From Xanthostigma xanthostigma (taxonomy: Eukaryota > Arthropoda > Insecta > Raphidioptera > Raphidiidae): DNA of 64,000 nucleotides. Below, piece after piece: positions 9,011 through 49,022 of this stretch. The stretch is from positions 60,473,901 to 60,537,900 of the forward strand of contig OY754465.1 in assembly GCA_963575645.1 (NCBI GenBank), given 5' to 3'. Each line of letters opens with the position of its first letter. The first letter of the stretch is position 1. The position numbers and the translations under genes are program-made. Under the pieces are notes generated by a model. The model was not told the DNA's origin. It did not search any database and worked only from the letters and a program-made list of their open reading frames with translations.

Positions 9011-9329
9011 TATTATTATTATTATTATTTGAAGATTGACTCTATTCAATACATAGAGTAACTGTGACCCGTTGAAGTTAATGATGAGTATTTGGAAAGA
9101 ATTCCGTGGCATAAGGATCGAAAATGAAGCAATACTGAGATTTTTTTAAACTTGCATTTAATACTAACGTTTCGATACGTTTTGTATCATCTTCAGAATG
9201 ACAGCATATTTGAAACCTCTGAAGATGATACAAAACGTATCGAAACGTTAGTATTAAATGCAAGTTTAAAAAATCTCAGTATTGCTTCATTTTCGATCCT
9301 TATGCCACGGAATTCTTTCCAAATACTCA

Positions 9330-9386
<57 letters not shown>

Positions 9387-9387
9387 G
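9011..9387. mobile_element. Foldback element with CGAAACG hairpin motif, copy A
   Basis: Inverted arms read GAGTATTTGGAAAGAATTCC (from about 9087) and the mirror near 9309-9330, meeting around 9197-9215. The plus-strand copy carries CTGAAGATG, then a GATAC/GTATC hairpin, then CGAAACG (about 9219-9250). The left arm extends to 9027. Both borders abut (ATT)n tracts (9011-9029 and 9331-9385), which could be an expanded target duplication. The second copy is at 23913-24192. No coding function; the open frames here are by-products of symmetry. Confidence 0.7.
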
Positions 9388-9431
9388 ACGTCTCGCTTTA
9401 CATTTAAGCATCTTCAATAACTATAATTAGA

Positions 9432-9690
9432 GAGAAAATAAAGAGCAATATTGTGATGTAATATTGAAAATAGAGTAAAAAACATTTACATACTGTCAAT
9501 TTATGACATCAAAATGGTATTTATTTTTAGTTTTCGACATTTTGTCTTTGGAAAGATTTTTATCTTTGATGTAAAGACAAAATGTCGAAAATTAAAAAGA
9601 AATACCATTTTGATGTCATAAATTGACAATATATAAATGTTTTTGACTCTATTTTCAATATTACATCAGAATTGCTCTTTATTTTCTCCA
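9432..9690. mobile_element. Foldback element, about 255 bp
   Basis: GAGAAAATAAAGAGCAAT at the left is mirrored by ATTGCTCTTTATTTTCTC at the right. Arms are about 110 bp around a short centre (about 9550-9565). The plus-strand arm has GACA-AAA-TGTC followed by GAAAA, a weak version of the hairpin motif in the neighbouring foldback. No clear flanking duplication. Confidence 0.6.
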
Positions 9691-10039
9691 GTTCGAATTT
9701 CAGAAAAGAGATGGCACATCCTGTATACATATTGACACGTTCGTACATACGTACGTACGTATGTGTTTATGTTGTCGATGGTGAATAAATGTCTATATAA
9801 AAATGTTCCGGAAGTGAAATGTGTCGGGCAAATGCATAGGTAACGCGGCCCGCACGCTCTGATGCGGTGTGTAAGTGGACAATGTCATGTATGTTAGCTC
9901 CCCTCTGTGTGTATAACCTTACTCTTTCTATTTGTACACCAGCGACGTACTATCCTGCTCGAAGGACCAACCAAAAATGCTCTTCCATCAAAACAATTCG
10001 CATAGTCGATTGTATATTTGAAAAAAATATGATCCCTCG

Positions 10040-10115
10040 TGAAACGCCTGGCACATTTTAAGCGGAATTCTAGTAACTAAATTTCGATCTGTGAACTAAT
10101 TAGGTTCTGGTGCCT
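10040..10115. repeat. Dispersed repeat shared with 25.5 kb
   Basis: ACGCCTGGCACATTTTAAGC through TTCTAGTAACTAAATTTC and a following CTGTGAACTAA resemble 25522-25650, where the TAACTAAATTTC part is expanded into an 18-bp tandem array. Confidence 0.5.
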
Positions 10116-10179
10116 GCGCCAGTGGCGCAAATTCGGAAGGCAGCAATCAGCAATGCGATTATGATTCTTTTATTTGAAT

Positions 10180-10560
10180 ACTAGCGGCCTGATCCGGCTT
10201 CGCTCGAATTTGTAAATTGCCACCGTTTTTTCGTCGACTTACATTGCAAAATTGATATCCACGAAAAGCGCTTATAGCATTAAAATGGGTATAGTAAGCT
10301 ATCCCTCAGCCGGCTTGATTTTTTCCAACATCTTCAACAATCATCGTCATATTTCCAATTTACACAAAACATTAATGAATTATTCAAATCTTTGTCAATA
10401 ATTTTATTTATTGATTAATGAATTATACACATAAATCTTTCTCTTGAATCAGTTCGTCCATTTGAAAATCCGTTCGATAATTTTTGAGTTTATCGTGTTC
10501 AGACAGACGCGGCGGGGGGACTTTGTTTTATAATATGAAGTGATATCACCCAACAAAATT
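10180..10560 (-). mobile_element. Helitron-like 3' end followed by an RTE-like tail
   Basis: ACTAGCGGCCTGATCCGGCT marks a minus-oriented terminus (CTAG then T on the minus strand). Internal GTCGACTTACATTGCAAAAT and ATCCACGAAAAGCGCTT match 26570-26605. At about 10490-10545, GTGTTCAGACAGACGCGGCG and TATAATATGAAGTGAT look like a common insect LINE or SINE tail. The far end is not resolved. Confidence 0.4.
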
Positions 10561-11058
10561 TTGAAGGAGCGAAATCAAGATCTTGCCTTGGGTGCTTTGC
10601 CCAGTAACCTACTATAAGAAATTCAAATAACTTTTATAAGAAGTATAAACTTTGCGACTGTAAAGGGGTCTGAAAAATAAACAATACACATTACTTTAAA
10701 ACGTAGGTGCCACTGTTTTCCAGATTTCTGTGGATGAATTAATCAATGATTGTATAAATTATTAACATTAGACGTTCGACAACTCTTGTCTATCTTGATG
10801 AGCCATATCTATATACGTCATCGTACGCCACTGGCGTCTATTAATGAACTAAATGTACCGCCATAAGTGTAGATTTAGACGCTCACCACAAAACAACTAC
10901 CAAACAGTGAACACAACTTTGCATCACATACCGAGTTCACCCTCGCGTTTGGAAAAGCCACCATTAATATTAACTTAAATACATTACGCGTATCAACTGT
11001 TACGATAAATTTGAGTAGGTACAGTTTATATACAACCATGCTTTTAAAAATCTATTGA
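10561..11058. other. Unassigned spacer
   Basis: No gene or repeat recognised, apart from a short TAGACGTTCGACAAC motif (about 10770) that recurs at 43109 and, in part, elsewhere. Confidence 0.45.
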
Positions 11059-11165
11059 ACTAGCGCCCCGTCCCGGGTTTCACCCGGGTGAAAAACTGTA
11101 AGATTTATTAAAACATAATCTCTCTTCCTCTCTCTTTGGAAATATTATATTAACCTTCCCATCTA
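11059..11165 (-). mobile_element. Helitron-like 3' terminus with perfect hairpin
   Basis: ACTAGCGCCCCGT is followed by the hairpin CCCGGGTTTCACCCGGG. Read on the minus strand this is hairpin, short spacer, CTAG, T, the Helitron 3' pattern. Extent to the right is uncertain. Confidence 0.45.
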
Positions 11166-11568
11166 CGCAACCATCCACAGCCACCTAGTATAATATGTGG
11201 TGGTAGGTGAAAAACCGTTTTGATGGATAGGATTTACATAAAATTCGTTCTTATAGTGAATACCTAAGTCGAGAAAGGAGTAACTATGGCAAATTTTAAG
11301 TCTATCGGGCATTTAGTTTGGGAGATCTCGTGATGAGTCAATGTGTTAATGAATGGTATTTCGCTTATTTATGTATACTTATAGAGTAGTCACTTTCCAA
11401 AAAAATAGTATTGTTTTATAAAATAGCTGCGTTAGTGGTTTCTATAACTCCTCGGAAAATTCGGATTATTCAAACAAAACCAGAATTTTTCGTTGTGGTC
11501 AGAATTCTGTTTCAAAATACTTTACTGCGGAGGAGATAACCAGTCCTAAGAATTACAAAGTCCAGATT

Positions 11569-11890
11569 TATAATACGCGCCACAAATCTAAAAGGCTCGG
11601 AAGTTAGATGCGAATGCGGGCATGCGCTTTGTACAGTCTGTACTACAAACTCGCAACTCAACAAAACAAAATTAACAATAACAACTTGACAATAGCGTAC
11701 TCGACTGTACTTTAAAGCAGGAAAGCCACAAGTGACAAAGGCAACGAGCGATCACGGCCAATCACCGACGAGCGTACTTTCCGTGCAGGTAGCTGGGAGG
11801 TGGTGGGAGTATCAACGGCTCTAAAATGTGCCTTTGCGACGCGGTTTATGACTAGCTTCCGAACCTTTTAGATCCGTGGCGCGTATTATA
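11569..11890. mobile_element. MITE with about 35-bp terminal inverted repeats
   Basis: TATAATACGCGCCAC and AATCTAAAAGGCTCGGAAG at the left are mirrored by CTTCCGAACCTTTTAGAT and GTGGCGCGTATTATA at the right. TA at each border fits a Tc1/mariner-type target site, but the symmetrical TATA makes the exact border ambiguous. The interior is more GC-rich than its surroundings and non-coding. Confidence 0.65.
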
Positions 11891-12014
11891 CTAAATTTCA
11901 AAATCTGTTAAACTGTTCCGATCCAAAATTGCTTTCGCCTGAAAAAACCACACGATCTCATTTACCCTCTAAAATTAACTTATATTGAAACACCGATTAG
12001 CTCTCTCAATATCT

Positions 12015-12157
12015 GAAGTGAAATTTCTTTAGCGACGTAGGTATTTGTTTGAAATCTTCCGTAACGTTAAAGGAGAAATTATTCACCGACAGGGAAACAT
12101 TAGTAACGCAAAAGGAGAAATATAAAAGAGGTTATAACTCTAAAGAAGTTTCACTTC
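12015..12157. mobile_element. MITE of the GAAGTGAAACTT family, copy 1
   Basis: GAAGTGAAATTTCTTTAG at the left and CTAAAGAAGTTTCACTTC at the right. The inner bases CGACGTAGGTATTTG resemble 54394-54412 of another copy. Related ends are at 15703-16029, 17783-18033, 39155-39382 and 54373-54578. Confidence 0.55.
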
Positions 12158-12159
12158 CC

Positions 12160-12802
12160 TCGTGAACTTTGTGGTTGAGGCTGCACATATTTGTTTTTAT
12201 TTCATTTTAGTTGCTTTAGAAGCACACCAAAAGTAATTTCACATACATTTTTCAGAAAGTATGTGGAGAGAGATTTTGGTTGCGTAAAGTTTATTTCGAT
12301 TTAGGACGATGGTGAATAAATTTTGTTCGGTGCGTCGTTTCTCGTTGAGACACTTCGTGGCACGTGACTGTTAATGTTGTCTCTTTTCATTCTACTGGGT
12401 GCTTTACGCTTTCAATGGAGGGTTATAAAGAGGGCTTAGACGGGGCGGCGGTGCCCTTTGGGCGTGTATTTGGTCACGGTACAGCTGTCCTTGAAGCAAT
12501 TCGCTTTGCTAATCGAAAACAACACAATTATTATTATAGGTACTGCATTCACAAAAACTATAACTTTTTTGACGTCGCCTATGAATCTGCGTCGTTAACG
12601 CGCGCCCTCTTTTAGAAAAAATCAAAATGAAACAGTCATTGCTTAGAAATTAGTTGCTCGTATCTTAATTTCAATAGTATATTACACCACAAGGGCAGAA
12701 AATTTGAGATTCTTGCACTGCGCGTTATGATATCCAACAGAGCCGAGGGCATCATGCGACGCAGAACAGCGCCTGAACGCAAGAAAGTCTGCCTCACGAA
12801 AC
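12160..12802. other. Unassigned region with a GC-richer patch
   Basis: About 12300-12520 is GC-richer and holds an open plus-strand frame (12364-12615) without an ATG start or a family motif. I see no splice or promoter evidence and do not call it a gene. Confidence 0.4.
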
Positions 12803-13026
12803 CAGGGTTGCCAACTTTAGGGTTTCCCCCTAAATTTGGAGGGATAAAATGTAGAATGGGATTTTTTAGGATCCTAATATTTTTAGAGACACAAAAAACA
12901 CTTAAAATTTTTCTATCAGACATTAGATGAATTACAAAACCGAGTCATTGTTAAATATCTGTTTACTAAGTAGTAACTTAAGTCTTAATAATATAATTAA
13001 TAATATAGTATTATATAGTAACATGA

Positions 13027-13641
13027 TGTGGCACTCGGTCTCCTTCAATATCAGAATACTGTCGTCTTTGTTGAACACGAATTAAAATGAATTCCGATTA
13101 TAGTAACAGAAGAACAATCTTTTTTTATTGTTAACTTAAGTTCTTTCAACACAGTTTTCCGCTTTGACGACTGTATCTACCAGCGTTGCCAGTTTTTTTT
13201 TGCCAAGTCGGGATTTTGGAACTCTTTGAGTGAAAACAGCGGAATTCTTTCGTCGAAAACGGGACATAGTAAAAGAACGTATATAATCAGAAGTTTTCAA
13301 ATATTTATCTTTTTATTTGAATTAAAATTACGTTTACGTGACAATAGCCATAGAAAATGTATTTTAATAAAAATATGATATTTTAAATCAGATTTACCCT
13401 ATCGTTAAATAGTTGAGTCTTATTCTCGTCTTCAGAATAAAAAAAAAAAAACAGAAATCAAAATCAAAAAAGTTTCCTCAGCACGCTGCGCGCACGGTCG
13501 AGTTATCCCCGAAAAGCGGGACTGAACCTGTCCCGCGCGGGACATTTAATTTTGATTTAAAAATCGGGACATCCCGCCAAAATCGGGACGTCTGGCAACG
13601 CTGGTATCTACTATTCTATGTAAGGAGACCGAGCGCGGTCT
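13027..13641. mobile_element. Middle element of the nest
   Basis: GCACTCGGTCTCCTT at 13031 is mirrored by AAGGAGACCGAGCGC at 13621-13635. The target duplication could not be read confidently, so the superfamily is open. It contains the intact 423-bp hAT element. Confidence 0.5.
13181..13603. mobile_element. Non-autonomous hAT element, TSD GTATCTAC
   Basis: Ends CAGCGTTGCCAG and CTGGCAACGCTG with a perfect 8-bp duplication GTATCTAC (13173-13180, 13604-13611). Many CGGGAC/GTCCCG motifs lie near both ends. As the innermost level with a perfect duplication, it is the youngest of the three. Confidence 0.88.
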
Positions 13642-13941
13642 ATCGTAATACGATAGATTTTTGCAAAGTAGGTAAAATAATTATTTTTTTAGGAGATTTT
13701 TAGGGATATTTCAACTTGAGATCGGGGTGGGGGGGAGATTTTTAGGAGTTGGCAACCCTGCACAGAACACATACGAGTTTTGTGACCTGTGGATTGTGTA
13801 AACTATTTAATTAAATGTTAGTTGAATATGGAAAATATAATTAATTCTAAAATTATAAAGTGTCTAAGATTTTGGTTGTTCTGCAGCTCTCATAGAGGAA
13901 CCGCCACTGCCAAGAAGACAAATTATTATGATAGTCCCAGA

Positions 13942-14988
13942 TAGGGTTACCATATGTAAATAGAGGGACGCCTGTATATGGTACCTAAAATGCCTGATTT
14001 TTCAGAAAAATGCCTGTCTAAAGCAAAACGCTGTATAGGTAATAAGTAAAAGCCAACAGATAATAATGAAGAAGGATGTTTATTACTGATATTTGTCAGA
14101 AGACATTATTTTTTTCAATAGGCGCGAAATTTGAAAATGTCTGTCTCAGACCAATGCCGGCCGCACGCCTGTCTAAACCTTAAAATGCCTGTCAAATGCG
14201 GCAAACGCCTGTCATATCGCACATCATATAGAAAAGTGACACAACTAAAAAATAGCAACTTTTTAGTTAAACCCCACATTAGATCCAAAATTGTACATTC
14301 TCTCGTTTGGAAAAACGACATATTTCTGCTTAAAATATTTACCGCTAGAGGACACTTGTGTCACTTTACCATTTTACTTTATTTTTTCTCGGTGACGGTG
14401 GAATAGTGTCATTTCTGAGTTGGTGAAGTAAGGAGGGTGCTTGTAAAGAGAATAAAACGACACTTTTTTAGTTGTGACATTAGGTAAGTAATTTTTCATT
14501 TTTCTGGTGGTTTCAAGTCAAATTGTGTCATTTTTCTATGATGATATTTTTCACTAATATTATAGCCTATAGGTTATGTGCCACTTTTTTAATTGTAACA
14601 TTTTTCTATACTGTTATTTGTTTAAAATACTTTTATTTATCTGACCTTTTTTAGTTGTGTCGCTTTTCAATAATGAACCTATTATTTGTGAGTTGTAACC
14701 TGTCATACTTGCTATGAAATGGGTTTTTGGTCATTAAGGACGAGTGACACTTCTCGAATTTTTTTAATTAATTATGGGGCTTAGACAATTTTTTTATCAA
14801 AGTATTGCAGAAAATGAATCTATGTTTATATTATATTGACCCCTTTTATTAAAAAAAGCTTTATTTACTGTCAGTGATTAAAACGAAAATATTTGGCAAT
14901 TATCAGCATTGTTTTTATACTCTCCTGTAAAATAACCAGTTTGGGATTAAGACGCTTTTCCATGTGATGTGCGATTATGGTAACCCTA
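13942..14988. mobile_element. Non-autonomous hAT element, 1,047 bp, TSD GTCCCAGA
   Basis: Ends TAGGGTTACCATA and TATGGTAACCCTA are perfect inverted repeats flanked by GTCCCAGA (13934-13941, 14989-14996). The left third repeats GCCTGTC/GCCTGT at least seven times. The middle (about 14230-14760) repeats a degenerate TTAGTTGTGTCACTTTTC motif in both orientations. No transposase frame was seen; the interior open frames lack motifs. Confidence 0.88.
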
Positions 14989-14996
14989 GTCCCAGA

Positions 14997-15534
14997 CGGG
15001 GAACGTTCTAGGGTTCTAGGTGCATTTTTTCCGCCCTACGTTTTACTATTTATTACTTAACTATAACTTTATTATCCATGTAATATAATACATTCTCTAT
15101 AATGTTATGTTTAGAACTTTTTTAAAAGTTCTTTATTGTTGTTTCAGTAACTAGTCGTAAACTAATGACAATAATTGATCTGAATAATACCAACATTAGA
15201 ACAGTTTATCTACTAATACCTATATGGAGCTATTTTACACTACACTATAGTGTATTATAGTGTTCTATATACAGTAATGTAGCTCTTATAAACTTTGTAA
15301 TAATAACTATTTACTCACAGTTTAGTTGACCCGTCACGTAAATGTCTCATTTACAGTTTTACAACAATCGGGTGTAGAATTGCGACGCCTCCTTGTTTAT
15401 TGTTAACAATGCGTTTTAATTAGCCAACAATCACTTGTAGACTTATTGGCCTGTTTTGTTATTGCCCTTTAAAAATAATATTGTTATTCTTGTGTCAACT
15501 TTTTTTTGCAATTTTTATTTACGTGAATTAAATA
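14997..15534. other. Unassigned AT-rich spacer
   Basis: No gene recognised. A small palindrome-like CACTATAGTGTATTATAGTG lies near 15243. Confidence 0.45.
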
Positions 15535-16140
15535 GATAGCGGTCCGTCCCGGTTTCACCCGGGTGCGATAGATATAATTCTGCAAAATGTCTCTCTTTTG
15601 CGGCCCGGCGTCTGAACTAATAGCTTTGAGCAAATTCTACCAGATTTGCTTCTGAACTGATAGCTTTGAGCGAATTCTATCAGATGTACTAAAACAGTTA
15701 TTAAAGTGAAACTTTTATTGTATCGCCCCGAATTTTTCTGGCCGTCTGTTGCATGTCGCATTACAGGCGGCCGCGGAGTAGGGGTAAAGTGAAAGGCGCT
15801 CGGAGTAGGCGCTCGGTAGAGCAGCCAAGGCCAATATAGCGGCGCCCATGGTTAGCATCAGCTGACCGTGTAGTATGTATAACACATAGTCAGTCTGTCA
15901 TGCGGGCATGTGCTGTACAGTGTTTACATGTTTTTATTCGTGTATTCATGTGAATATTGTTGTTTATAATTAATCGTGATGGATAAGTGTCTACAATCCA
16001 ACGCCTACAATCCAATAAAAGTTTCACTTGCGTCGTGGTTTCTTAAAACCACACAACTGTTTTTTTTTGTTTGCTTCTGAACTAATAGCTTTGAGTAAAG
16101 TCTATTAGATGTCGTTACATGTTACTAAAACAGTTTTTTT
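15535..16140 (-). mobile_element. Helitron-like element with 41-bp repeats, interrupted by a MITE
   Basis: The minus-oriented end GATAGCGGTCCGTCCC is followed by the hairpin CCCGGTTTCACCCGGG. Then a repeated unit (TTGCTTCTGAACTAATAGCT plus TTGAGCAAATTCTA...) occurs at about 15608-15650, 15650-15690 and, beyond a MITE, 16070-16112. The same unit occurs three times in the plus-oriented element 58182-58481, so they are one family. Confidence 0.5.
15703..16029. mobile_element. MITE with AAGTGAAACTTTTATTG ends
   Basis: AAGTGAAACTTTTATTG at the left and CAATAAAAGTTTCACTT at the right, enclosing a GC-richer non-coding interior. It splits the Helitron-like sequence, whose 41-bp repeats resume beyond it. 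Confidence 0.6.
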
Positions 16141-16247
16141 TTTTTGTAACGACGTTTTCACGTCAAAAAATATTGTTTCATTTACTTAATTATTTTTCGA
16201 GCAGGATTGATTTAACATTCTACAATGCTGTTAATATGTGTGGTTAA

Positions 16248-16306
16248 TCTGAGGTCATTGTCAAATCAGATTTTCTGACAATGCTTTCTGCAACCCGGCA
16301 TTAGAC
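16248..16306 (+). repeat. 55-bp dispersed repeat, copy 1 of 3
   Basis: AAGGTCATTGTCAAATC-type segment ending in CTGCAACCC. Similar copies are at 51778-51830 and 63008-63064. Origin unknown. Confidence 0.5.
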
Positions 16307-16543
16307 TGCTGGCAAACGTTGCGTATACTTTTACTTAATTGAAAACAAGAGAGAATCCAGGCCACATTTGCATAGTTGAAGAGAGTGAGCGAGACGAGCG
16401 TAACAAGTAGCCTGTACCACGCCTTCAGAGCCCACTGTTTCAGATAAATCATTTGTAAGAGAAATAATTCACTGTTAAATAATTAATATGCAAAAGAGAA
16501 ATAGACAAGCATATTAATATCATACTTCTATAATATGTTATAA

Positions 16544-16906
16544 ATAGTGGCCCGATCCGGCTTCGCCCGAATTGTCGCTGTTCTTTCGTCGACTTACGTT
16601 GCAAAATTAACGCGAGAATGTGTCCTTCCTGAAGGTTCACTCTAAATAGTGGTGAAAGAATTTTTCAAATAGGTGCAGTTAGATTGCCCTCCACATTCGC
16701 ACAAACACAAAATTCGTATTCTCTTTTTACATTAAAATTGTGATAGAATATGTTCTAAATTATTTACATATATACATGTTCATAGGCCCTGAAGATGAAA
16801 ATAAATTTTTCGAAACGTTGGCCACTAGCGAAACATTGGTAATGCATATTTTATGATCCTCAACCAAAACCTTCCTTCATCTTCTCTTTATAATGTTAGT
16901 ATAGAT
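16544..16906 (-). mobile_element. Helitron-like element carrying a hairpin-motif insertion
   Basis: The 3' terminus (minus strand) is near ATAGTGGCCCGATCCGGCTT. The internal CGACTTACGTTGCAAAATTA matches the 26514 element. The right end CTCTTTATAATGTTAGTATA followed by GAT mirrors the TCTATACTAA-type 5' end. Between about 16793 and 16890 lies a foreign segment with CCTGAAGATG, a GAAAA/TTTTC hairpin and CGAAACGTTGG, related to 48646-48844. Confidence 0.5.
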
Positions 16907-17216
16907 TTACAAATTAATAGTAATTTTTCAATAGTGCCTTAAATAGATCCCCACTCGTACAATTAGGCTATTCGCATAATTTTGATCATTTTTAATTTTA
17001 AATTTTTTGATGTAGGAGTAATGGTGTTTTTGGTTATGATAGGATAAGGAAGCCAATACTATGCCAAGATCAACCGTGCTCTACAAGTAAGCGTCTCAAC
17101 ATTTATCGGGAACTATTTGCGGAAATCAATGAAAATCGCAGAGTGGCTGGAATTCATAGGAGTCATGGAAAGTTTGATACTCTGACCTTGGAACCATCTC
17201 GATATTTATAGTAGAA

Positions 17217-17467
17217 CTAATGTATTTTCAACCTGTCGGAACTAACCGACTCATGTATTTTCAACTGCTCCTTCATCCTCACTTGGTGGCAATCATAGAC
17301 CCAACCAGAAAAAGCCTTTATCAATTTGAGGTTAAAAGTTGCTAAACGGATTTTTCCCATTGGCCAAGGAGCGTAGAAGGAGACACTTTACCTGAAAAGT
17401 AGGGACTAAAAAATATTTGAATAAAATCAGTTGAAAATAGAAGGTGTTGAAAATACATGAGTCCGAC
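17217..17467. mobile_element. MITE with CATGTATTTTCAAC ends
   Basis: CGACTCATGTATTTTCAAC (17247) is mirrored by GTTGAAAATACATGAGTCCG (17446-17465). An outer related copy of the end occurs at 17217. Homologous elements are at 23195-23466, 34444-34620 and 35082-35580, sharing TTTATCAATTTGAGGTT and GTAGGAGGAGACACTTT blocks. Confidence 0.55.
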
Positions 17468-17640
17468 TGTATCTGGAATTATCTGAAGGAAACCACAAAA
17501 AAACTTAATCAAGGCAATGCAGATGTAGAAATGTTATATGAAATCAAGAAAAGGTAGCTAATTTTAAGAATAAAATAGATATTTATTAACTTTGGCCTTG
17601 AATATAGAACCACCTCGCCACTTGTTTTGAGGGAGACCAT
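17468..17640 (-). repeat. SINE-like fragments
   Basis: CTGGAATTATCTGAAGGAAA and TTGGCCTTGAATATAGAACC are reverse-strand relatives of the SINE central region at 24375-24440. The pieces are broken up. One plus-strand frame here is open for about 30 codons, but I do not consider it coding. Confidence 0.3.
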
Positions 17641-17782
17641 GGATAATAATCTATTCGATCAAGTTTTCCAGTACACGAATGATAATTTCTAGGAGGAGAT
17701 AGCTGGAATAAAATCTGACACATCTGTGTCCGATCAATTTTATCCTACTACAAAACTAGCAGCGAGTTATTTGAACATTTTT

Positions 17783-18033: not shown

Positions 18034-18049
18034 TAGCGCGCGGGAGACT

Positions 18050-23898: not shown

Positions 23899-23912
23899 AA
23901 TAAATTAATTGT

Positions 23913-24192
23913 GAGTATTTGGAAAGAATTCCGTGGCATAATAAGGATCGAAAATGAAGCATTTAATACTAACGTTTCGATACGTTTTGTATCATCTTCA
24001 GAGTGTTCAAATGCTGTCACACACTCTGAAGATGATACAAAACGTATCGAAACGTTAGTATTAAATGCAAGTTTAAAAAAGTCTCAGTATTGCTTCATTT
24101 TCGATCATTATGCCACGGAATTCTTTCCAAATACTCATCATTAACTTCAATGGATCACAGTTACTCTATTTATTGAATAGAGTCAATCTTCA
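23913..24192. mobile_element. Foldback element copy B, flanked by a 14-bp direct repeat
   Basis: Same family as 9027-9330. The right arm is complete (ending CTCTATTTATTGAATAGAGT...CTTC) and the left arm is truncated. The hairpin motif CTGAAGATG, GATAC/GTATC stem, CGAAACG is at about 24025-24056, with its mirror at about 23970-24002. AATAAATTAATTGT flanks both sides (23899-23912, 24193-24206). A 14-bp duplication is unlike hAT or mariner and fits target-primed insertion. Confidence 0.75.
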
Positions 24193-24225: not shown

Positions 24226-24582
24226 CCGAGCGGTGTAGCGTAGTGGTGAGAGCACTAGACTTGCATTAGGAAGAAACTGGGTTCGAATCTCGGCAGGGGC
24301 AGATGTGACTGGGACTTTTTCCTGCTGCCTCTCGACGAGAAACGGTAATTCCTGTACTGGCCATTTTGTTGAGGTTTTCCATGGTTTCCTTCAATAATTC
24401 CAGATAAATACCGAGATGGTTCCTTATTCAAGGCCATGGCCGATTACCTGTCAAACTCCTGTGCTCAAAATTTGCCTACCTTATCCTAAAATCCCTTCAT
24501 TCGCTCATTGCTATCAATTAGTTGAAGTTGAAAAAATCTAGAAAATTACGGGAAGTGTGATAGATGGAAAATAGTAAGAGTA
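24226..24582 (+). mobile_element. tRNA-derived SINE
   Basis: Internal RNA polymerase III promoter: A box TAGCGTAGTGG (24236-24246) and B box GGTTCGAATCT (24280-24290), about 35 bases apart as in tRNA genes. The body carries TTTTCCATGGTTTCCTTC and GATAAATACCGAGATGGTTC, then AAGGCCATGGCCGATTACC, the conserved central-domain style of several insect SINE families. The 3' part is duplicated at 40332-40490. It encodes no protein and would rely on LINE machinery. Confidence 0.8.
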
Positions 24583-40305: not shown

Positions 40306-40331
40306 TAAGGAAACGTATGAAATTAATCAAG

Positions 40332-40490
40332 GCCATGGCCAATTACCTGTCAAACTCCTATGCTCAAAATTTGCCTACCTTATCGTAATGTCCTAAAATT
40401 ACTTCATTCGCCCATATTGCTATTAATTAGTTGAAGTTGAAAAAAAGTAGAAAATAACGGGAAGTGTGATAGATGGAAAATAGTAATGGT
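40332..40490 (+). mobile_element. SINE 3' fragment
   Basis: AAGGCCATGGCCAATTACCT through GGAAAATAGTAA is homologous to 24434-24582. The tRNA-like head is missing, consistent with 5' truncation. Confidence 0.6.
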
Positions 40491-40539
40491 TCGAATGGCG
40501 TCTGCTATGACATAAAGTCGAGAAATGAACGTTAAACGC

Positions 40540-40676
40540 ATTATTAGTGTATTTGCCATAAGGCACTTACACTATTGGCGTCGGTCGGATGGCGGGACCT
40601 AGGGGTCGGACCAAAATTTCTCGACGTTTCATAACCTTCTAAGAAGTTTGGCACCATTTTTGGAAAAGTATGTTTA

Positions 40677-40715
<39 letters not shown>

Positions 40716-40990
40716 TAGCACGATAACTCTCGACAGACTTAATCGATTTAAACGAAATTTGGGCCACATGTTGGAATCTATCACCGCACGAAGCCTATTT
40801 AAAATGGGCCCAATCGGGCCACGATAAGGGTGGTATTTAGGGGTTGAAAAAATTTTTCGGGCCCAAAAATACCGAAAAAATTTTCGGAATCGTTTCAAAT
40901 TTGAAATTTAACCCTTTAGTAATTATTAAAATATGCTGCTAAAATTTTAAAAACATCGGCCCGACAGGACCGGACTTACAAATTTTATGA
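40540..40990 (+). repeat. Dispersed repeat plus (AT)n microsatellite
   Basis: GTGTATTTGCCATAAGGCAC through GGCACCATTTTTGGAAA (40547-40668) recurs at 48489-48610. A (TA)n run at about 40678-40713 separates it from CACGATAACTCTCGACAGAC and TTTAAACGAAATTTGGGCC, a common insect repeat tail. Confidence 0.55.
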
Positions 40991-41248
40991 AAACACAAGT
41001 TTACTGATATAGGTAGATTTACATACTGAAGGGTGTATATAATTTGGTACAGATGTTGAATTGATATGTAGTATTGAAATTTAGTAAAAATTGTTGTTTT
41101 AAGGGGTGTATTAAGGGGTAATTTTTTTTATTTTGTCCAAAAATAAGTTCATACAATAGAGCCACACTGCCTATAAAAGCAAATACACTATATTGTCGGC
41201 AGGGTTTGGCACTGCGACCCGAGTTTTTATATTATTATTCTTAAAATT
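40991..41248. other. Unassigned spacer
   Basis: Nothing recognised. Confidence 0.4.
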
Positions 41249-41704
41249 TATATTAGATATCGTGTCCATATAGAGATAAAAATAATTAATAAGAAAAATC
41301 GCAGGATTGTGGACAAAAAGTTAGATTTATTAATGTACGACGTTTCGTCTATATATTTAGATTTAGGCCTAGTTTATATGAGAGGCGTTCAACGCGCGTT
41401 AGCCCAACGCGCGTTTACAGTTTCTATACAATTGTATAGGACTGTTTATATGATAACGCGCGTTGGTGGCGCGTTGAACGCGCGTTATCATATAAACAGT
41501 CCTATACAATTGTATAGAAACTGTAAACGCGCGTTGGGCCAACGCGCGTTGAACGCCTCTCATATAAACTAGGCCTTAGACAAATGTTTATTTTCATAAC
41601 TATTGTTTTGAATTTTCTTATTGCACTTGAAAAAGTCTAAACTATAGACGAAATGTCGTACATTAATAAATCTAACTTTTTGTCCACAGCAATTTTTCTT
41701 ATTA
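41249..41704. mobile_element. Foldback with hairpin motif, 12-bp flanks, host of a nested palindrome
   Basis: Outer arms (AATTAATAAGAAAAAT at 41284 and ATTTTTCTTATTAATT to 41707; GGACAAAAAGTTAGATTTAT and mirror) are split by the element 41366-41575. ATTCTTAAAATT lies at 41237-41248 and 41705-41716. The plus-strand arm has CTTGAAAAAGTCTAAACTAT and then AGACGAAATG (about 41627-41656): a GTCTA/TAGAC hairpin followed by CGAAATG, the same layout as the 9.1-kb and 48.7-kb foldbacks. Confidence 0.6.
41366..41575. mobile_element. Near-perfect 210-bp palindromic MITE, TSD TTA
   Basis: GGCCTAGTTTATATGAGAGG at the left, its mirror at the right, flanked by TTA (41363-41365, 41576-41578), which suits PIF/Harbinger. 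The arms are dominated by AACGCGCGTT motifs and ATACAATTGTAT. Only a few bases differ between the arms. It lies inside a retro-type foldback. Confidence 0.75.
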
Positions 41705-42027
41705 ATTCTTAAAATTATTTTTTTTTGAAAATGTTTTAAGTTGGCTGTTATAGAGCTAATTCACAGTCAGAGGCCAGAGCGAAGGGACAGCTGAGGTAGA
41801 AAAAAAATTGATAATACTGAATCATCTAATGACTGATGACAAAGTACTTAAGTATGAAAAGGCTGATTGCGTTAACGATAGTGCTTGTAATTAAAGCCAC
41901 ACAAGAATAAAGGAAGACGCCGTTTAGTTAAAAGATCCCAACTCAACGTTTATTAAAAACACATTTTTAAACGAAATCCAAACATTAACGCAATGACGTC
42001 TCACGACAGGTAATATTCTTAGCGTTT

Positions 42028-42990
42028 TTTTTAACCGACTTAAAAAAGAGGTTATCAATAATTAATGAATACTAGTGGTCGTCAGTGGTCGAAATTCGAC
42101 CGTAATTCATTACATTTTTGTTTGAACGTTATTGAGGTTCTTTCGTCATTATGTGAACTTCTCTGGAGTCGATTTGATCTATGTTAAATCGTACACATTG
42201 TTATGAAACATATATTGTGTACTTTCCCCTCATTAAAACGAAGAGAACGATGTATGTTTCATCAGAATTAACACTCTCAAATCGGTACCACACTCTTTTT
42301 TTCCTCCCCGTATTTATATACAGCGTGTCCACGAAAGTTCTTTACAAATGGATTTTTTTTTTATTAATTATTGGAGCAAAAATGTTTTTCTGTGGAAAAG
42401 TTCTGCTTCGTCCAAAACCTCTAAAACATCTAAGAAAATTTTTTCGGCCTAAAGTTATACGTAATACGAGAGAAATCAAAAAGTTTTATTTTACTAAAAA
42501 TAAAAATTATCTGTGATATTCAAGATTTTCGCAAAATTAGTTACATAATCAAATTTAATTTAAAATAATAACTAACTTCTAAGTAATTATTTATTCAGAA
42601 TTATAAATCATAATTCAACACGTCCTCTATCTCTCTCCATTCAAAGAAAAGTTCTCCTAACAAAATTTTTTTTGGTGTTTTAGAGGTTTTGGACAAAGCA
42701 GAACTTTTTCACAGAAAAAAATTTTTGCTCCAATAATTAATAAAAAAAAAAATCCATTTGTAAAGAACTTTCGTGGACACGCTGTATATTTTTTGTTTGT
42801 TCAGCCATAACTTTTCGAGGAGTTAACTGATTAAAGAAATGTCGACATCATTTTGTTCAGAATGTGGTCCCATTTTTTTGAAATCGGTTCTTCAAAAAAG
42901 AGGATTTTTTTATATATTATTCTACCTAATATCTGCAGCATTTTTTAACTGATTTTTGTTGACTCTTTTTCTATTTGATAGAGCATATAC
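42028..42990 (+). repeat. AACCGACTT...GAGGTTAT repeat, interrupted by a MITE
   Basis: AACCGACTTAAAAAAGAGGT at about 42032, and CCATAACTTTTCGAGGAGTT with CTACCTAATATCTGCAGCAT at about 42807-42950, correspond in order to 63785-64000. The MITE 42319-42786 sits between. A common interspersed insect repeat; no coding frame. Confidence 0.5.
42319..42786. mobile_element. MITE with about 130-bp inverted ends, TA target
   Basis: TACAGCGTGTCCACGAAAGT and its mirror, with TA at each border (42317-42318, 42787-42788). Arms run through AAAACCTCTAAAACA. The 111-codon open frame across the left arm is an artefact of AT-rich sequence. The superfamily could be Tc1/mariner-like. Confidence 0.7.
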
Positions 42991-43141
42991 GTTCAGAATG
43001 GTCTCATATAAATTTTACTAAAACTGGTTCAGCAGTTTTTTTCTAGTTTAGTAATAAAATTACTGAAGAAGACAGTTAATATAGCGTTAGACAGATACTG
43101 TCAATTATAGACGTTCGACAACACAAGTTATAAACGTTTGC

Positions 43142-43584
43142 CAGGGCCGGATTAACCCTGTCCGGGCTCCTATCAAGGCAATAAGGTCTTTTCAAGTTGA
43201 TGAAGGATCATAGGATGATCGGCTCCAGGCATCCTGTTACTTCAATATCTTATGATGATTACTTTGACTAGATGCTGCAGCATCGCCTTACCTGACTCGT
43301 TAGCTTTATTGAAATGGTCTTAATAAATAGGTTATAGATACTTAATTGATGATCCAGGTTTTTTTATGGGTCAGAAAAGAGAAATGAGACGTGACGTAGT
43401 TATTTTAAATTTTAACTTGTTAAATGCAATAAATTACAATACACAACGAAAGAAAATAATATTGTTGTTGGAAAATTTCATACAAATTTTCAGATAAAAT
43501 TTTCGTTCAATGAAATTTATTTTCTTGGTGCGTGCGGGGCCCCCAGACAGTTGCCTACTCTGCCTAATGATTAATCCGGCACAG
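43142..43584. mobile_element. hAT MITE, 443 bp, TSD ACGTTTGC
   Basis: Ends CAGGGCCGGATTAA and TTAATCCGGCACAG (one extra base) with a perfect 8-bp duplication ACGTTTGC (43134-43141, 43585-43592). No transposase frame. Confidence 0.85.
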
Positions 43585-43592
43585 ACGTTTGC

Positions 43593-44564
43593 CTAAACCT
43601 CGAAATCAGTGGCAATGTTTTCCTTATACTGCAATGTATGCGGAATTTCAGAATTATGTTCGAGTGGTTATTTTTAAGTGTTCACTCTGCAGGTATTTTA
43701 TTTACTATATATAGTTGTTGACAATTTACAATACGGTCGACCCTTAACTCCAACCAAAAGAGCAGCGTTTGTACAAATAAACCGTTGTTATGATGCGAAG
43801 TACAATGTTAATCCAATCCGATTATCTATAACGTAAATATGTGCAACATTCATAATATAATGTTATATTGTAGATATACCTCTGAAATGTTTACAACTTT
43901 AGATATACTGGGTGTTTTGTCAGGTCATTTCATAAAAAAGTGATATTTTGAATTTTTAAAAATATTTCTCCCATGGATAAAAACGAATGAATGGTAGGTG
44001 GTTGGAGTGCTACCACAGGGCTATGAAACGCACTTGTTTTCAGACTGATTCATTAATTCTAAGTTAGAGAAATTTTGGTGTAAAGTTCGAAACTGTCTAC
44101 AATCACCCCAAATGACGGTACTATTACAGAAAAACTTCTACTCTGTCGAGGAATTTTTTAACCATAAGTTTTAATGATATTATCATTCAAGACACGTCTA
44201 ATCATTCAGTCCAATGTGGTAAGCAATTAATTAATATATAAATTAAGTTTGATATAAAAAAAAAATTATATGTATAAAACTATGATGTAAAAAAAAATCA
44301 AATAAATGGAAAAAAAAGATATTTTGTATTTTTCATTTAGTTCAAAATCAGCTTGATATTTAGATACTTCGAGTTAAATGTTAAGTGTTTTGTTTAAAAT
44401 AAAAATTGTAGTTGTTTTAACAAAATTAGCAATTCCAAACAAGTTCTATTTTATAGTTATATTAAAAACATTAGAGTTGGCACTAAAGATTTATTCACTT
44501 GAGTCTAGCGACTGTGTGTTGTTCCGAGAAATACCGTCAAGCGAACAGAGCGCTTCACTCTATC
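43593..44564. other. Unassigned AT-rich spacer
   Basis: Nothing recognised. Confidence 0.45.
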
Positions 44565-44572
44565 ACTTTATG

Positions 44573-45029
44573 TAAGATAATATATAAGAAGGTATTCCAA
44601 TCCTGCAATGCATCATGGGAAATATGTCAAGCGGTCGCGCCACCACGAGTGTGTCAGATACACTAGCCATCCAATCCTGCAATGCATCATGGGAAATGTG
44701 CCAAGCGGTCGCGCCACCACGAGTGTGTCAGATACACTAGCCAGTAACTAAAGTATTTTCATCCTAACTCTTGAAATAATAATAAATATTGTTTATTAAT
44801 TATTAGCGCCTAAAAAATTTTTTTTCACCCTTCAACAACAATAATATAGAATAATAATTAATTAATTATTATTCTATATTATTGTTGTTGAAGGGTGAAA
44901 AAAAATTTCCCATGATGCATTGCAGGATTGGATGGCTAGTGTATCTGACACACTCGTGGTGGCGCGACCGCTTGACACATTTCCCATGATGCATTGCAGG
45001 ATTGGAATACCTTCTTATATATTATCTTA
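44573..45029. mobile_element. Foldback of 74-bp units, TSD ACTTTATG
   Basis: TAAGATAATATATAAGAAGG and its mirror bound the element; ACTTTATG flanks it (44565-44572, 45030-45037). The left arm holds two tandem 74-bp units; the right arm holds inverted counterparts. The centre (about 44813-44908) is a perfect palindrome around TTAATTAATTAA. Each unit holds TTCCCATGATGCATTGCA or its complement (44604-44621, 44678-44695, 44907-44924, 44981-44998). The 8-bp duplication suggests hAT-type integration. Confidence 0.85.
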
Positions 45030-45037
45030 ACTTTATG

Positions 45038-46763
45038 AGTTTCGCCGTATCGAAGCGCGTAGGGAACTTGAGCCTAGCGATTCTGGTTTGAGGTCAGGAA
45101 CTATTTTTTACAGTGTACATAAAAACTGCATTTACATAAACTTCTATCTCATACAGTCTGTATATTTCCGTAATCCCGTGTTAAATGCCTTTACAATAAC
45201 CCAGTAGGTATTCTGTACAATGTGTACAATGCTTTGTGTCTGTGAGCAGAAAAGTGTCAACCCGGATCGATGTTACATCATATAACCTACCTATACGGCT
45301 AATTCAGACACCGGCATTCAATACAACAGATATTTGTTTACGCACTGACACAAGCACAGTCGAGCCTTTTGGAAATCTTATTTGCACGCTGTACTGGACT
45401 CCCATTCAAATTTGAATATTATTTTGAAATAGCCCAACTCTGTTTTTTTTATTACGTAATTATAGGTATTTTTATGTTTATATCGTAATTCTGAGAATAA
45501 AAATGGATTAAAAGATTAACGTACATGGACCCTTGCTATTGGTATTTGGAATTGAAGGTTAGATCATGCGGTTTGCTCGCGAGTAATCACCTTTTTGTAA
45601 GACGTGTGACCCACTCAGTAGAATGTATTCAAATTAGGAACACGGCAGCAAATCGGATTTTTAACACGTTTTCATTATAACAATGAATAATATTAATTAT
45701 TAAAAATAAATATGATTATATTCCGATACCGCATCTTTTTCGCCTGTATGTATCTATCTAATGGAATCTTTCAATTGTCTGAATAATTTAAAATTTTGCA
45801 CACGTATTAAGAGCCCATAACAATACAATAGCTTATATAAATTTATAAATATATATAAATAATTTATATAAATTGATTATATACTTAACTTGAAAAATTA
45901 CTGTTAACAGGCTAACGAGCCATGCGCGCTGTACGTTGCGTTGCCTACCCGTGGGAGTGGATTTTAGTGATAATGAAAATTATAGTAAAAAAAAAAACAA
46001 CTAAACAACCCGCTTTCATGTCAATGTATACAAAAAGTAAAAAATCATTTTTAAATATAATGATTTTTTTCAACAGCTATATTTTTTAAGTATATAGTTT
46101 TTTTGAACTACATATATTTTATTTTTAAGTTTGTTAAAAATGTGAAATTTTTGTTCATTTTATTTCTTGATTTTAAATATCTTTGATCTTTGTGTACAAA
46201 CGTGATATCGAGTTTTTTTATTTATTTTATTTTTTGTGAGGAGCGCAACTAATATTGGGCATTATCCTGCGTAATATAATAACAAAAATAAATAAACATA
46301 CGACCTCTAAAGTTAATATTGATTAAACGTCTTGGTATTTTCGTTTCATAGTCATGGGTTGCCCTTGACCCCAGGCAGCCATTTTGCATAACAAATAGCG
46401 TACACCTTGTCATGAAAATGAAAATTCATCCCTAAGGTTCAAACACGATTACATTCTGACAGAATTTTTTTTTACCTACTATCTTTTGTAAGGCTAAAAG
46501 TCCTGTATTTTAACGCGTCTATCCAAGCTAATGGTATAATTATTACTCATTCTTAAATTTCGTGGAACTATTAATACGTTCGACTATCGATTATAGAGGT
46601 ATAGGCAAGTAGTAGTCTCAGTTATAGAGGTTCATAAATGAAAAACGTCTTACTCGCTTATAGAGGTTTCTGTTTGTCACTTAATATAGAGGTTTCTCAC
46701 TTAGAGAGTTTTCTCGCTTACCCAGTTTTCACTCAATTAGGACTGTATTCCTAATTAATAATT
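45038..46763. other. Unassigned AT-rich spacer
   Basis: No gene, promoter or repeat recognised. Confidence 0.5.
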
Positions 46764-46764
46764 A

Positions 46765-47107
46765 CTAGCGGTCCCGCCCGGTTTCACCCGGGTGCAAAAG
46801 AACGAATGGAGGGGAGGGACATGAGTACTCACGTACATCTTTGTTTAACCGAGATGAATGTTGTGTCCAAATTTCATGATGATCGGAGTTACCGTTCAAA
46901 AGTTTTTATCGGACGGACAAATTTTGAGTTACATTTTGCAACATTTTTCATTGATGCTCCGCTCCTATTGGTCGTAGCGTGATATTATATAGCCTATAGC
47001 CTTCCTCGATGGACTATCCAACATTTTTTTTCAATTCGAACCAGTAGTTCCTGAGATTAACGCGTTCAAACAAACAAACAAACTCTTCAGTTTTATATAA
47101 GTATAGA
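46765..47107 (-). mobile_element. Helitron-like element, complete
   Basis: The minus-strand 5' end is A|TCTATACTTATATAAAAC. The body includes the widespread GTTTGAACGCGTTAATCTCA and CTATTGGTCGTAGCGTGAT (plus-strand reading). The 3' end is the hairpin CACCCGGGTGAAACCGGGCG, then CTAG|T (46768-46764). Both borders obey the A|T rule. A hAT MITE has inserted exactly over its 5' border. Confidence 0.6.
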
Positions 47108-47108
47108 T

Positions 47109-47337
47109 CAGGGGCGGGCAAATATTTTGATCGGCGGGCCGTATGGCTGATGAAATATTCACCGCGGGCCAAAAATTTGCAGACCAAAAAAAAGGTCCTC
47201 ACATTCTATTTCCGCATTTGGAGACCAAAAAAAAAGGGCCCCACATTCTATTTTCGCATTTTACTATTTTTCTAAAACTTTCTAAAATGCTTCGCGGGCC
47301 GGACAAAATTGCGCTGCGGGCCATTTGCCCAGGCCTG
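47109..47337. mobile_element. hAT MITE, 229 bp, TSD GTATAGAT
   Basis: CAGGGGCGGGCAAAT and ATTTGCCCAGGCCTG ends with a perfect 8-bp duplication GTATAGAT (47101-47108, 47338-47345). Subterminal GCGGGCC motifs repeat on both sides. The interior has two copies of a GACCAAAAAAAA(G)GG block. A shorter homologue is at 52869-53001. Confidence 0.88.
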
Positions 47338-47345
47338 GTATAGAT

Positions 47346-48485
47346 GTACACTGTCTAAACTATCAGAGATACGATAATTATGTTTGTTGCTCTGTTGCTC
47401 TTGATTGTTTCGTTTTGCTAATTCAAAATCTTCTCGGGCGAAACCGGGTCGGAAAGCCAATAATATAATATATAAACAATAAAAACATACCAATGTAGAC
47501 TCAGACATATTATGTTATAAAAACACAAATGCAAGGAATGATAATAGAATAATCTATCTGCACGGCATAAGGCATTGCAAACTTACAGCACACGATTTAT
47601 TCTGTAAATTATAGGTGTAATTTGCAAACATTAACCTTGAAATGTGTAAAATTATATCTGTATACACACACATACGTACATATATAGTTTCATACATGCA
47701 TACATATATACATACATACACACAAACATACATAACACCACTGCGTTCATAAAATTGCAAACCTCCATAAATTATTTTATTGCTGCTTGCTTTAATATAT
47801 GTCCACCGATTTTACTTATCGGAATGTCAAAGCAACTCATTTTTAGTAGCCAATTAGCGTTTTGTCAGATTTAATTTTTAATTTTGAGTAGCTTTTGTCC
47901 GCGGCTTTACTTGTGTGAACGTCAATTTTGCCTGCAGACTCACTCGCGTTATATTTTTTGTGGCAGTTTTGATGGGTTTTCTATCTTAACCCAAGTCTAT
48001 CACGGGGAAACGTAAGATACCTTATGCTTTTTAGTTTGGGTACCAACTTATAGGCTAAGTTTCACGAAAATCAGTCCAGAAATTTTTCAAGAATATCAGT
48101 ACCTATAGGCAATTATACAGACAAAATTTTGGTTACGTGTTTTCCTGTTTCAGTATCATAAAAGATGTAAAAAGCCACGAGAAAACTGTGGTACAAATAT
48201 TAGAATAGAATAGAATATTTACTTTATTAAAAACCAAAAAGGTATAATAGCGTCATTTAGGAAAAAAAGATAATTGGACAGATCTGTCTTAGAATTGCAC
48301 GCGGCAATCATATCAGCAATTTCTTTGCTCTATTTTTGAAAATTGTAATATTCTGAATTGATTTTATATCTGAAGGTAGCATGTTATAATAATTTATTCC
48401 CCTTGCAGAGCGGACTGTTTACTGTATTTAGTAGTTCTATATTTTTTTACAAATTAGACACAAATTCTAAAATTGTATATTCTTT
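47346..48485. other. Unassigned spacer with (CATA)n and a LINE-like tail
   Basis: Tandem ACATACATACACA-type repeats lie at about 47660-47735. At about 48060-48145, GTTTCACGAAAATCAGTCCA and ACAGACAAAATTTT look like a LINE tail. Nothing gene-like. Confidence 0.4.
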
Positions 48486-48488
48486 TTA

Positions 48489-48612
48489 GTGTATTTGCCA
48501 TAAGGCACTTACACTATTGGCGTCGGTCGGATGGCGGAACCTAGGGGGTTGGACCAAAATTTCTCGACGTTTCATAGCCTCTTAAAAAGTTTGGCACCAT
48601 TTTTGGAAATGA
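48489..48612 (+). repeat. Dispersed repeat, second copy of 40547-40668
   Basis: GTGTATTTGCCATAAGGCAC, GGCGTCGGTCGGATGGCGG and TTTCTCGACGTTTCATA are shared with a few differences. Confidence 0.65.
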
Positions 48613-48645
48613 TCTAAACTACACTACGTAGTCGAAACTGGTAAT

Positions 48646-48844
48646 TGAAGGAGATTTATTTGGTTGAGGAACAATTTAAAAATAAGCTTTACAAGAGTAT
48701 TGCTTGTGGCCAACATTTCGAAAAATATATTTTCATCTTCAGGGCCTCAATGCAAATTGAGATGGTAAAAGCGATACTCTGGTAAAGCTTATTTTTCAAT
48801 TGTTCCTCAACCAAATAAATCTCCTTCAATACATATTTTTGGAA
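48646..48844. mobile_element. Foldback with hairpin motif, 13-bp flanks
   Basis: TGAAGGAGATTTATTTGGTT and its mirror bound the arms. CGAAACTGGTAAT flanks both sides (48633-48645, 48845-48857). On the minus strand the insert reads CCCTGAAGATG, a GAAAA/TTTTTC hairpin, then CGAAATGTTGGCC. A homologous half-element is at 16793-16890 in plus orientation. Confidence 0.7.
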
Positions 48845-48886
48845 CGAAACTGGTAATGTACAGGTACATTTTTAAGTCTGACACTG

Positions 48887-49022
48887 AAACCACCAACGTT
48901 TCGATCGATATTCGATATTTTACAAGGTTCTAAAGAGTCAATCGCACTTTGTCATCAAATTTTGACAAAGTGCGATTGACTTTGAAAAAGATCGAATATC
49001 GATCGAAACGATGGTGGAATAA
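48887..49022. mobile_element. Foldback with GATCGA-stem hairpin motif
   Basis: CCACCAACGTTTCGATCGAT at the left and ATCGATCGAAACGATGGTGG at the right, around a CACTTTGTCA...TGACAAAGTG centre. The plus-strand arm reads CTTTGAAAAAGATCGAATAT and then CGATCGAAACG: a stem followed by GAAACG. A looser 17-base direct match (AACTACACTACGTAGTC, AACTGCACTAAGTAGTC) brackets this and the previous foldback. Confidence 0.6.

Follow-up and report, generated by a model that had tools for sequence, protein, structure and literature searches.

Foldback elements in the Xanthostigma xanthostigma genome carry a minimal type I hammerhead motif and are very probably copies of Penelope-like element pseudo-LTRs

Introduction

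A 64 kb stretch of the Xanthostigma xanthostigma genome (about 34% GC; G000:C2:60473901-60537900), hereafter the window, contains foldback elements of unrelated sequence in whose arms a short hairpin is followed by GAAA. Which RNA, if any, does this recurrent arrangement specify, and what kind of element has spread it through a host genome of 623 Mb (28 contigs)? A preliminary description had ascribed the layout to five foldbacks, proposed a structured RNA with covarying stems and pointed to the hammerhead core of Penelope-like elements (PLEs). The motif is genuine and abundant, and it is of a kind already known, hammerheads (HHRs) having been reported in PLEs. It is very probable that the window foldbacks at 9.1, 24.0, 41.2-41.7, 48.7 and 48.9 kb, together with a single arm at 16.8 kb, represent copies of PLE pseudo-long terminal repeats (pLTRs) that are small and non-autonomous and carry a minimal type I hammerhead motif, in which a palindromic ACGU would provide stem III only between molecules or tandem copies.

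Layout and occurrence of the motif

The motif is arranged as a minimal type I hammerhead, in which the first strand of stem I leads into CUGANGA and a single additional base, and stem II is followed by GAAA, YGU, H17 and the returning strand of stem I. It had been objected that no cleavage-site helix is obvious. This objection does not hold, since both the folds and the alignment contain a stem I that flanks the core and U16.1-H17. Stem III is mostly represented by a palindromic ACGU only, as in the minimal forms of PLEs, whose hammerheads have been described as type I lacking helix III (PMC6155905, PMC7761336). Copies with GAAACGATCGT (L054, L055 and L057) can form 2 bp capped by a palindromic tetraloop.

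The full core (CTGAAGA, T, a perfect 5-bp hairpin and GAAA) has 6 matches in the window, at 9219+, 9196-, 24026+, 24001-, 16789+ and 48742-, against a mean of 0.047 and a maximum of 1 in 300 dinucleotide shuffles of the window; these are copies of two families (four of family A; 16789+ and 48742- of family B) and not 6 independent occurrences. The motif is commoner than in shuffled sequence. A relaxed core, YTGANRA, has 9 matches against a shuffled mean of 0.63 and a maximum of 6 (300 shuffles). It adds 41627+ (family C), 48982+ (family D) and 18003-, the last of which is probably a chance match.

The hammerhead is the minimum-energy fold in 3 of the 6 window copies folded. The minus-strand copy at 24.0 kb (z -2.83) forms stem I from GCAUUU..ACU and AGU..AAAUGC, and between these two strands lie an unpaired core, stem II and an unpaired GAAACGUU; the 48.7 kb minus-strand copy (z -1.75) and the 16.8 kb plus-strand copy (z -0.98) adopt the same fold through a GGCC/GGCC stem I. 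The extra base before stem II is T in 137 of the 185 copies examined, so that an AUG arises between A9 and the base that opens stem II.

The foldback families of the window

The inverted repeats at 9.1/24.0, 9.5, 16.8/48.7 and 48.7 kb and a nested palindrome at 41.4 kb are among the 25 longest of 57 inverted pairs in the window, while direct inspection of the sequence showed the 48.9 kb foldback and the outer arms at 41.3-41.7 kb. The shared layout is present in four groups, families A to D. It does not extend to the 9.5 kb foldback, which has GACA/TGTC before GAAA and is excluded because it has neither a CUGANGA or UUGANAA core nor YGUH after GAAA. Positions 9450-9672, where it lies, form a long near-perfect palindrome without a hammerhead core.

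Families A and B have the form CTGAAGA-T-hairpin-GAAA(C/T)GT. Family A comprises the copies at 9.1 and 24.0 kb, each with the motif in both arms. The 24.0 kb foldback (23913..24192, plus strand) is an inverted repeat in which a truncated inverted arm stands head-to-head with a longer arm ending in TCTTCAA, and it is flanked by a 14-nt direct repeat, AATAAATTAATTGT, at 23899 and 24193. One of its cores (23971..24001, minus strand) has a spliced-type stem I; in the other (24026..24056, plus strand) the upstream strand of stem I is shortened at the foldback junction. The second foldback (9025..9335, minus strand) lies inside an (ATT)n microsatellite, where a target duplication is unreadable, and the core scan places its cores at 9166..9196 (minus strand) and 9219..9249 (plus strand).

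Family B comprises the copies at 16.8 and 48.7 kb. The former, initially taken for a foldback, is a single arm with an unspliced-type core (16789..16819, plus strand), upstream of which stand the last bases of the putative family B intron at its 3' end (..TTCATAG, then GCC; see below). The latter is a foldback (48646..48844, minus strand) flanked by a 13-nt direct repeat, CGAAACTGGTAAT, at 48633 and 48845; its core (48712..48742, minus strand) has a spliced-type stem I (GC..GGCC with GGCC..GC).

Families C (41.6 kb) and D (48.9 kb) have a second form, TTGAAAA-A-hairpin-GAAA. This CTTGAAAAAG form, already noted in the preliminary description, reads as a hammerhead core in which U3-A8 replaces C3-G8. 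The family C foldback (41249..41704, plus strand; 12-nt direct repeat ATTCTTAAAATT at 41237 and 41705) carries its core, UUGAAAA A GUCUA..UAGAC GAAAUGUC, at 41627..41657 on the plus strand, and in its relatives L115 and L126 stem I is GUAC/GUAC. Nested within the element, at 41363-41578, is a near-perfect palindrome whose arms measure 100 nt; it ends in GGCC, is bordered by TTA at either end and represents a separate insertion resembling a miniature inverted-repeat transposable element (MITE).

The family D foldback (48886..49022, plus strand) was read directly and is decayed, with damage in both arms (GAAACGAT in one, TTGTAAA in the other). Its plus-strand core (48982..49012) is of the U3-A8 form and deviates at U16.1 (GAAACGAU), and the core of the other arm (48895..48925, minus strand) deviates at A6 (UUGUAAA). 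The family is intact elsewhere in the genome, in the relative L158. No target duplication was found in the flanks of the 48.9 kb foldback; direct repeats of 12-14 nt, read as target-site duplications, flank 3 of the 5 foldback members of the window.

Covariation, the 3-8 core pair and the cleavage-site rule

Covariation was assessed on rows assembled from joined pieces that cover 3 nt of stem I, the core, 4 bp of stem II, GAAACG and a final 5 nt. A set of 32 representatives consists of 29 of 43 joined rows and 3 composed rows (L137, L145 and L159). Left out as near variants were L134, L116, L055, L140, L146, L130, L048, L105, L085, L052, L051, L161, L121 and L061; L161 is a C3-A8 row, and its omission favours the hammerhead reading. 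Of the 32 rows, 11 come from places picked by eye, a choice that favours paired stems. A second set of 33 rows therefore holds all 32 rows not picked by eye, plus L137.

In the 32 representatives, 90.2% of cells are paired against 55.7% after shuffling, and the score of 0.909, against 0.233 after shuffling, was reached in 0 of 500 shuffles; versions slid out of register attain at most 57.3% and a score of 0.220. In the 33 rows the values are 86.0% against 55.7% and 0.793 against 0.233 (again 0 of 500 shuffles). Stem II cells are paired in 93.0% and 88.6% of cases in the two sets, and 3 of its 4 pairs change on both sides; for stem I the figures are 84.4% and 77.8%, with all 3 pairs changing on both sides. 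The search patterns fix the first pair of stem II and steer positions 3 and 8, the remaining pairs being free. Rows with GAAACGATCGT or a related form (L054 and L047, and in the 33-row set also L055, L051 and L052) are counted with stem I misplaced, which biases the result against the hammerhead reading. The proposal of a structured RNA with covarying stems is thus borne out in both sets.

Across the genome there are 23,614 matches to four core forms against 119 in reversed controls: 17,007 C3-G8 (control 16), 5,199 U3-A8 (58), 874 U3-G8 (24) and 534 C3-A8 (21). The odds ratio of paired to mispaired 3-8 states, after subtraction of the controls, is 200, although these matches are copies and not independent events, and each large family is fixed for a single state. 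Among the first 100 mispaired matches listed for each form, many resemble C3-G8 families altered at one base, and the AAG-ATCC..GGAT family appears among both the U3-G8 and the C3-A8 matches listed. At family level the 32 representatives divide into 22 CG, 8 UA, 1 UG and 1 CA, a count that is biased because most loci were fetched with C3-G8 or U3-A8 patterns, so that its Fisher p is not used; the four genome-wide counts are free of this bias. Strictly, the CUGANGA core with C3-G8 is found in families A, B and many others and not in C and D.

Position 17 is U, C or A (the NUH rule) in all 29 representatives with U16.1, the latter being absent from the alignment in the other 3 of the 32. G17 occurs in 117 of the 17,007 C3-G8 matches and 15 of the 5,199 U3-A8 matches, totals that include matches without U16.1.

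The link to Penelope-like elements

In a search for GIY-YIG domains, 150 of 521 candidates were scored, giving 37 matches, and 30 loci were fetched. In 23 of these 30 loci, several of which overlap or are near-identical, a sense-oriented motif lies 551-1130 nt downstream of the point at which the GIY-YIG match starts. The 23 motifs were found without a core pattern, and they comprise 21 C3-G8, 2 U3-A8 (L014 and L017) and 0 mispaired forms. RVT_1 and GIY-YIG were both matched in 2 of 3 open reading frames (ORFs) tested; at L033 an ORF with reverse transcriptase (RT) and GIY-YIG lies beside the motif, in a family other than A-D. The early remark on a likeness to PLE hammerheads was right.

The arrangement of the copies points in the same direction. 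An extra inverted motif lies upstream at L021, L023, L034-L036, L038, L039 and L041, L038 and L039 being neighbours that face away from each other. Among the first 100 C3-G8 and the first 100 U3-A8 matches listed, same-class neighbours within 1 kb are head-to-head in 35 of 40 pairs, direct in 5 and tail-to-tail in 0. A head-to-head arrangement has been published for Penelope pLTRs, and those of Adineta vaga further resemble the present elements in target duplications, solo pLTRs, intron retention and, as proposed here too, the movement of sequences in trans between pLTRs (PMC3846280). They differ in that the unit is here short and non-coding; the word hammerhead is absent from the main text of that paper (PMC3846280). 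With the minimal type I hammerheads described from PLEs, the elements share the core, stems I and II, the absence of helix III, the pLTR location and the thousands of dispersed copies (PMC6155905, PMC7761336), and they differ from them in a large U3-A8 class and in a 3' splice site inside stem I (see below). Neither of these two features was recognised in the literature searched, as far as the text seen of it extends; the primary papers of Cervera and De la Pena 2014 and Lunse et al. 2017 lay outside that literature and are known through citing papers, so that either feature may stand there.

These observations can be combined into a model in which RNA from tandem copies would pair as dimers through the palindromic ACGU and be cut after H17, which would trim it to unit length. 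The RT/GIY-YIG protein of autonomous relatives would then copy the RNA into a new site, and a second, inverted copy would often be added at the 5' end to yield a foldback. The spliced RNA would carry a longer stem I. Because the extra T makes AUG with A9 and stem II, cleavage at H17 would also part this AUG from the sequence downstream. The foldback copies themselves are probably poor ribozymes, since the long arm duplex would compete with the ribozyme fold, and the window copies may be inert by-products.

Several results weigh against the pLTR reading. Most families have no intramolecular stem III. The comparison with Rfam hammerhead models suggested in the preliminary description gave no match in the whole window, at the gathering score or at E up to 10; 20 other loci had no match at the gathering score and 6 more none at E up to 10. 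Of 6 loci with a short stem III or something close to one, L054 and L055 do match the whole 45-position Hammerhead_1 model, which speaks for the hammerhead reading, although below threshold (17.2 and 17.5 bits, E 3.9 and 3.2, gathering score 34). The minimum-energy fold is not a hammerhead in the copies at 9.2+ (z -0.75), 41.6+ (-0.64) and 48.9- (+0.80). By two of the five covariation measures the alignments do no better than shuffled ones: double-change pairs number 7 against 6.9 (32 rows) and 7 against 6.8 (33 rows), and further pair types, at 25 against 23.2 and 25 against 22.3, are not clearly above them. Relatedness among copies means that copy counts overstate independence. As for the PLE link, 7 of the 30 GIY-YIG loci have no sense motif downstream, the third ORF tested (L012) matched no family, L022 has RT and GIY-YIG and no motif in the flank examined, and none of the four window families, A to D, could be linked to an ORF with RT or GIY-YIG; their descent from PLEs is inferred. 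In length the direct repeats, at 12-14 nt, exceed those of A. vaga, for which 8-10 bp has been published (PMC3846280).

A ribozyme or its relic?

It is possible, although the lesser prospect, that the motif is the non-catalytic relic of a hammerhead and persists as a structural signal such as a protein-binding site or a start site for reverse transcription of PLE RNA. The hammerhead of the Anolis PLE (PAc), which resembles the present motif in stem I, stem II and loop II, needs protein for cleavage and is dispensable for insertion in vitro (PMC11167929). The missing stem III and the competition from foldback arms agree with a relic. Against it stand the restriction at position 17 and the paired state of positions 3 and 8, which fit selection on a catalytic centre, at least in the source elements. 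PAc is described with C3 and G8; there, either single change, C3G or G8C, abolishes cleavage, which is partly recovered when the two are combined (PMC11167929). In family A the distance from the A of AUG to the cut would be 25 nt, a count that suggests that PAc, too, may have an additional U ahead of stem II and with it such an AUG (PMC11167929).

As regards the 3-8 pair, the genomic copies described here bear both of its paired states in large numbers. Exchanges at these positions have been tested in vitro in other hammerheads.

Three direct copies of a U3-A8 family (TTGATAATG-TCTACCGCAG), with spacings of 99 and 199 nt, lie at L142/L143.

A probable intron that ends inside stem I

At L061, GCATTTG (GCCTTTG in one arm) is separated by a 75-nt GTAAGT..TTACAG stretch from AACACT-CTGAAG, and in other copies the two sides are joined. 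Genome-wide, family A has 51 exact copies with a GTAAGT..ACAG stretch (75 nt in 46 of the 51) and 318 joined copies, with 0 in controls; family B has a GTATGT..ATAG stretch in 71 copies and the joined form in 702, again with 0 in controls. As the patterns used for the intron form are longer and more stringent than those for the joined form, these ratios are not frequencies. Among the copies examined, 17 of 34 in family A are joined, 6 intron-type and 11 other, and in family B 28 of 54 are joined, 17 intron-type and 9 other; in the window, the 16.8 kb copy of family B is intron-type and the 48.7 kb copy joined. Judging from the splice signals and from the coexistence of copies with and without the stretch, the stretches in families A and B appear to be introns. 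The intron would end in stem I, and splicing would complete the helix. Prediction from splice-site words is noisy and was used for these two families only, where copies of both types can be compared. Retention of introns in genomic copies, here in families A and B, is a trait of PLEs, and the Penelope element of D. virilis has a short intron in its 5' UTR.

Paired arms of family A foldbacks tend to share their intron state: 14 pairs are joined-joined, 6 intron-intron and 1 mixed, against 9 mixed expected, in a count limited to exact matches at the first 100 of the 318 joined and 21 of the 51 intron places. Such agreement would be expected if a single RNA, or like templates, had served for the copying of both arms. 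The sole mixed pair among the 21, at G000:C3:52531917 (minus strand) and 52532329 (plus strand), is a head-to-head pair of one intron-bearing and one joined arm.

A YAG trinucleotide 3-6 nt upstream of the core has a summed mean fraction of 0.39 in 26 clusters, against 0.054 expected; it is far commoner there than at more distant upstream positions and is near the core in at least 20% of copies in 15 of the 26 (one of the 15 being a deletion variant of family B). This YAG enrichment and the two copy types of families A and B raise the question of whether splicing gates the ribozyme, in that only spliced RNA with a full stem I would cleave well, which would separate coding from template RNA. 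Such an addition to the pLTR reading is tentative and, on balance, rather unlikely. When forced into the hammerhead fold, spliced copies do have lower energies than intron-bearing ones (family A, -12.2, n=18, against -5.5, n=7; family B, -16.8, n=29, against -11.65, n=18), although the p values of 3e-4 and 6e-4 ignore relatedness. Measured against all other folds, however, the hammerhead fold costs the same in spliced and intron-bearing copies (medians of -4.37 and -4.85 kcal/mol in family A, -1.16 and -1.31 kcal/mol in family B), so that a switch in folding is not demonstrated. Moreover, the proximal GGCC/GGCC helix of family B is intact without splicing, and since introns are known in PLEs the position of this one may be accidental.

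Retrozymes and DNA-level hairpins

The arms could instead belong to non-LTR retrozymes, circular-RNA retroelements with type I hammerheads, and not to PLE pLTR copies; we consider this improbable. At L042 (G000:C1:10655700-10658200) three family A motifs stand in direct tandem with spacings of 216 and 220 nt, inside the 170-400 nt range published for retrozymes (PMC7229834). The same spacings match the pLTR length of 218 bp published in PMC3846280, and L042 is the single family A array examined (another array, L142, belongs to a different family). The hammerheads of metazoan non-LTR retrozymes and of the axolotl are of type I, and the palindromic tetraloop in their stem III resembles the GAAACGATCGT families (PMC7229834). 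Most families here, in contrast, lack a stem III hairpin and are mostly dispersed and in foldbacks, not in tandem arrays, and the head-to-head layout and the introns are PLE-like. Finally, DNA-level hairpins of MITEs or chance palindromes, suggested by the inverted repeats and by the MITE-like palindrome nested in family C, deserve almost no credence, since the coexistence of joined and intron-bearing copies speaks for an RNA stage, the flanking direct repeats measure 12-14 nt, and a DNA hairpin needs neither an isolated 3-8 pair nor a rule at position 17.

Other features of the window and rejected candidates

A further foldback, with ends ACAGCGTGTCCACGAAAGTTCTTT, lies at 42316-42789, and the hammerhead motif was not seen in it. 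Core scans found no motif in the foldbacks at 2907-3333, 4568-5461, 6364-6502 and 44573-45029. A tRNA-like stretch at 24227-24300 looks like the head of a short interspersed element (SINE); ARAGORN reports no tRNA in the window. An open frame of 141 aa at 60239-60664 (minus strand) has a Cys/His zinc-finger-like pattern and is possibly transposon-derived.

Rfam microRNA matches at the foldbacks were rejected, being below the gathering scores and of a kind that any long hairpin would give. Motif matches on viral contigs (one at L001; two at L002 and L003) were likewise set aside, L001 and L002 looking like chance matches within coding sequence.

Implications for Penelope-like elements

What may be new is the class of U3-A8 cores and the splice site in stem I. 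The far-reaching form of the argument, a hammerhead assembled by splicing that would be switched on only in spliced RNA while unspliced RNA survives as template, with, in addition, a large branch built on a natural U3-A8 catalytic core, is doubtful and put forward as speculation. If the U3-A8 copies do cleave, the 3-8 pair of the hammerhead core would have been exchanged in nature on a large scale. This form would escape searches built on CUGANGA, and Rfam models found none of the window copies. The in vivo activity and role of PLE hammerheads have been called a mystery (PMC7761336). If splicing completes stem I, it would give these hammerheads a concrete, testable role, and might bear on the retention of introns by PLEs.

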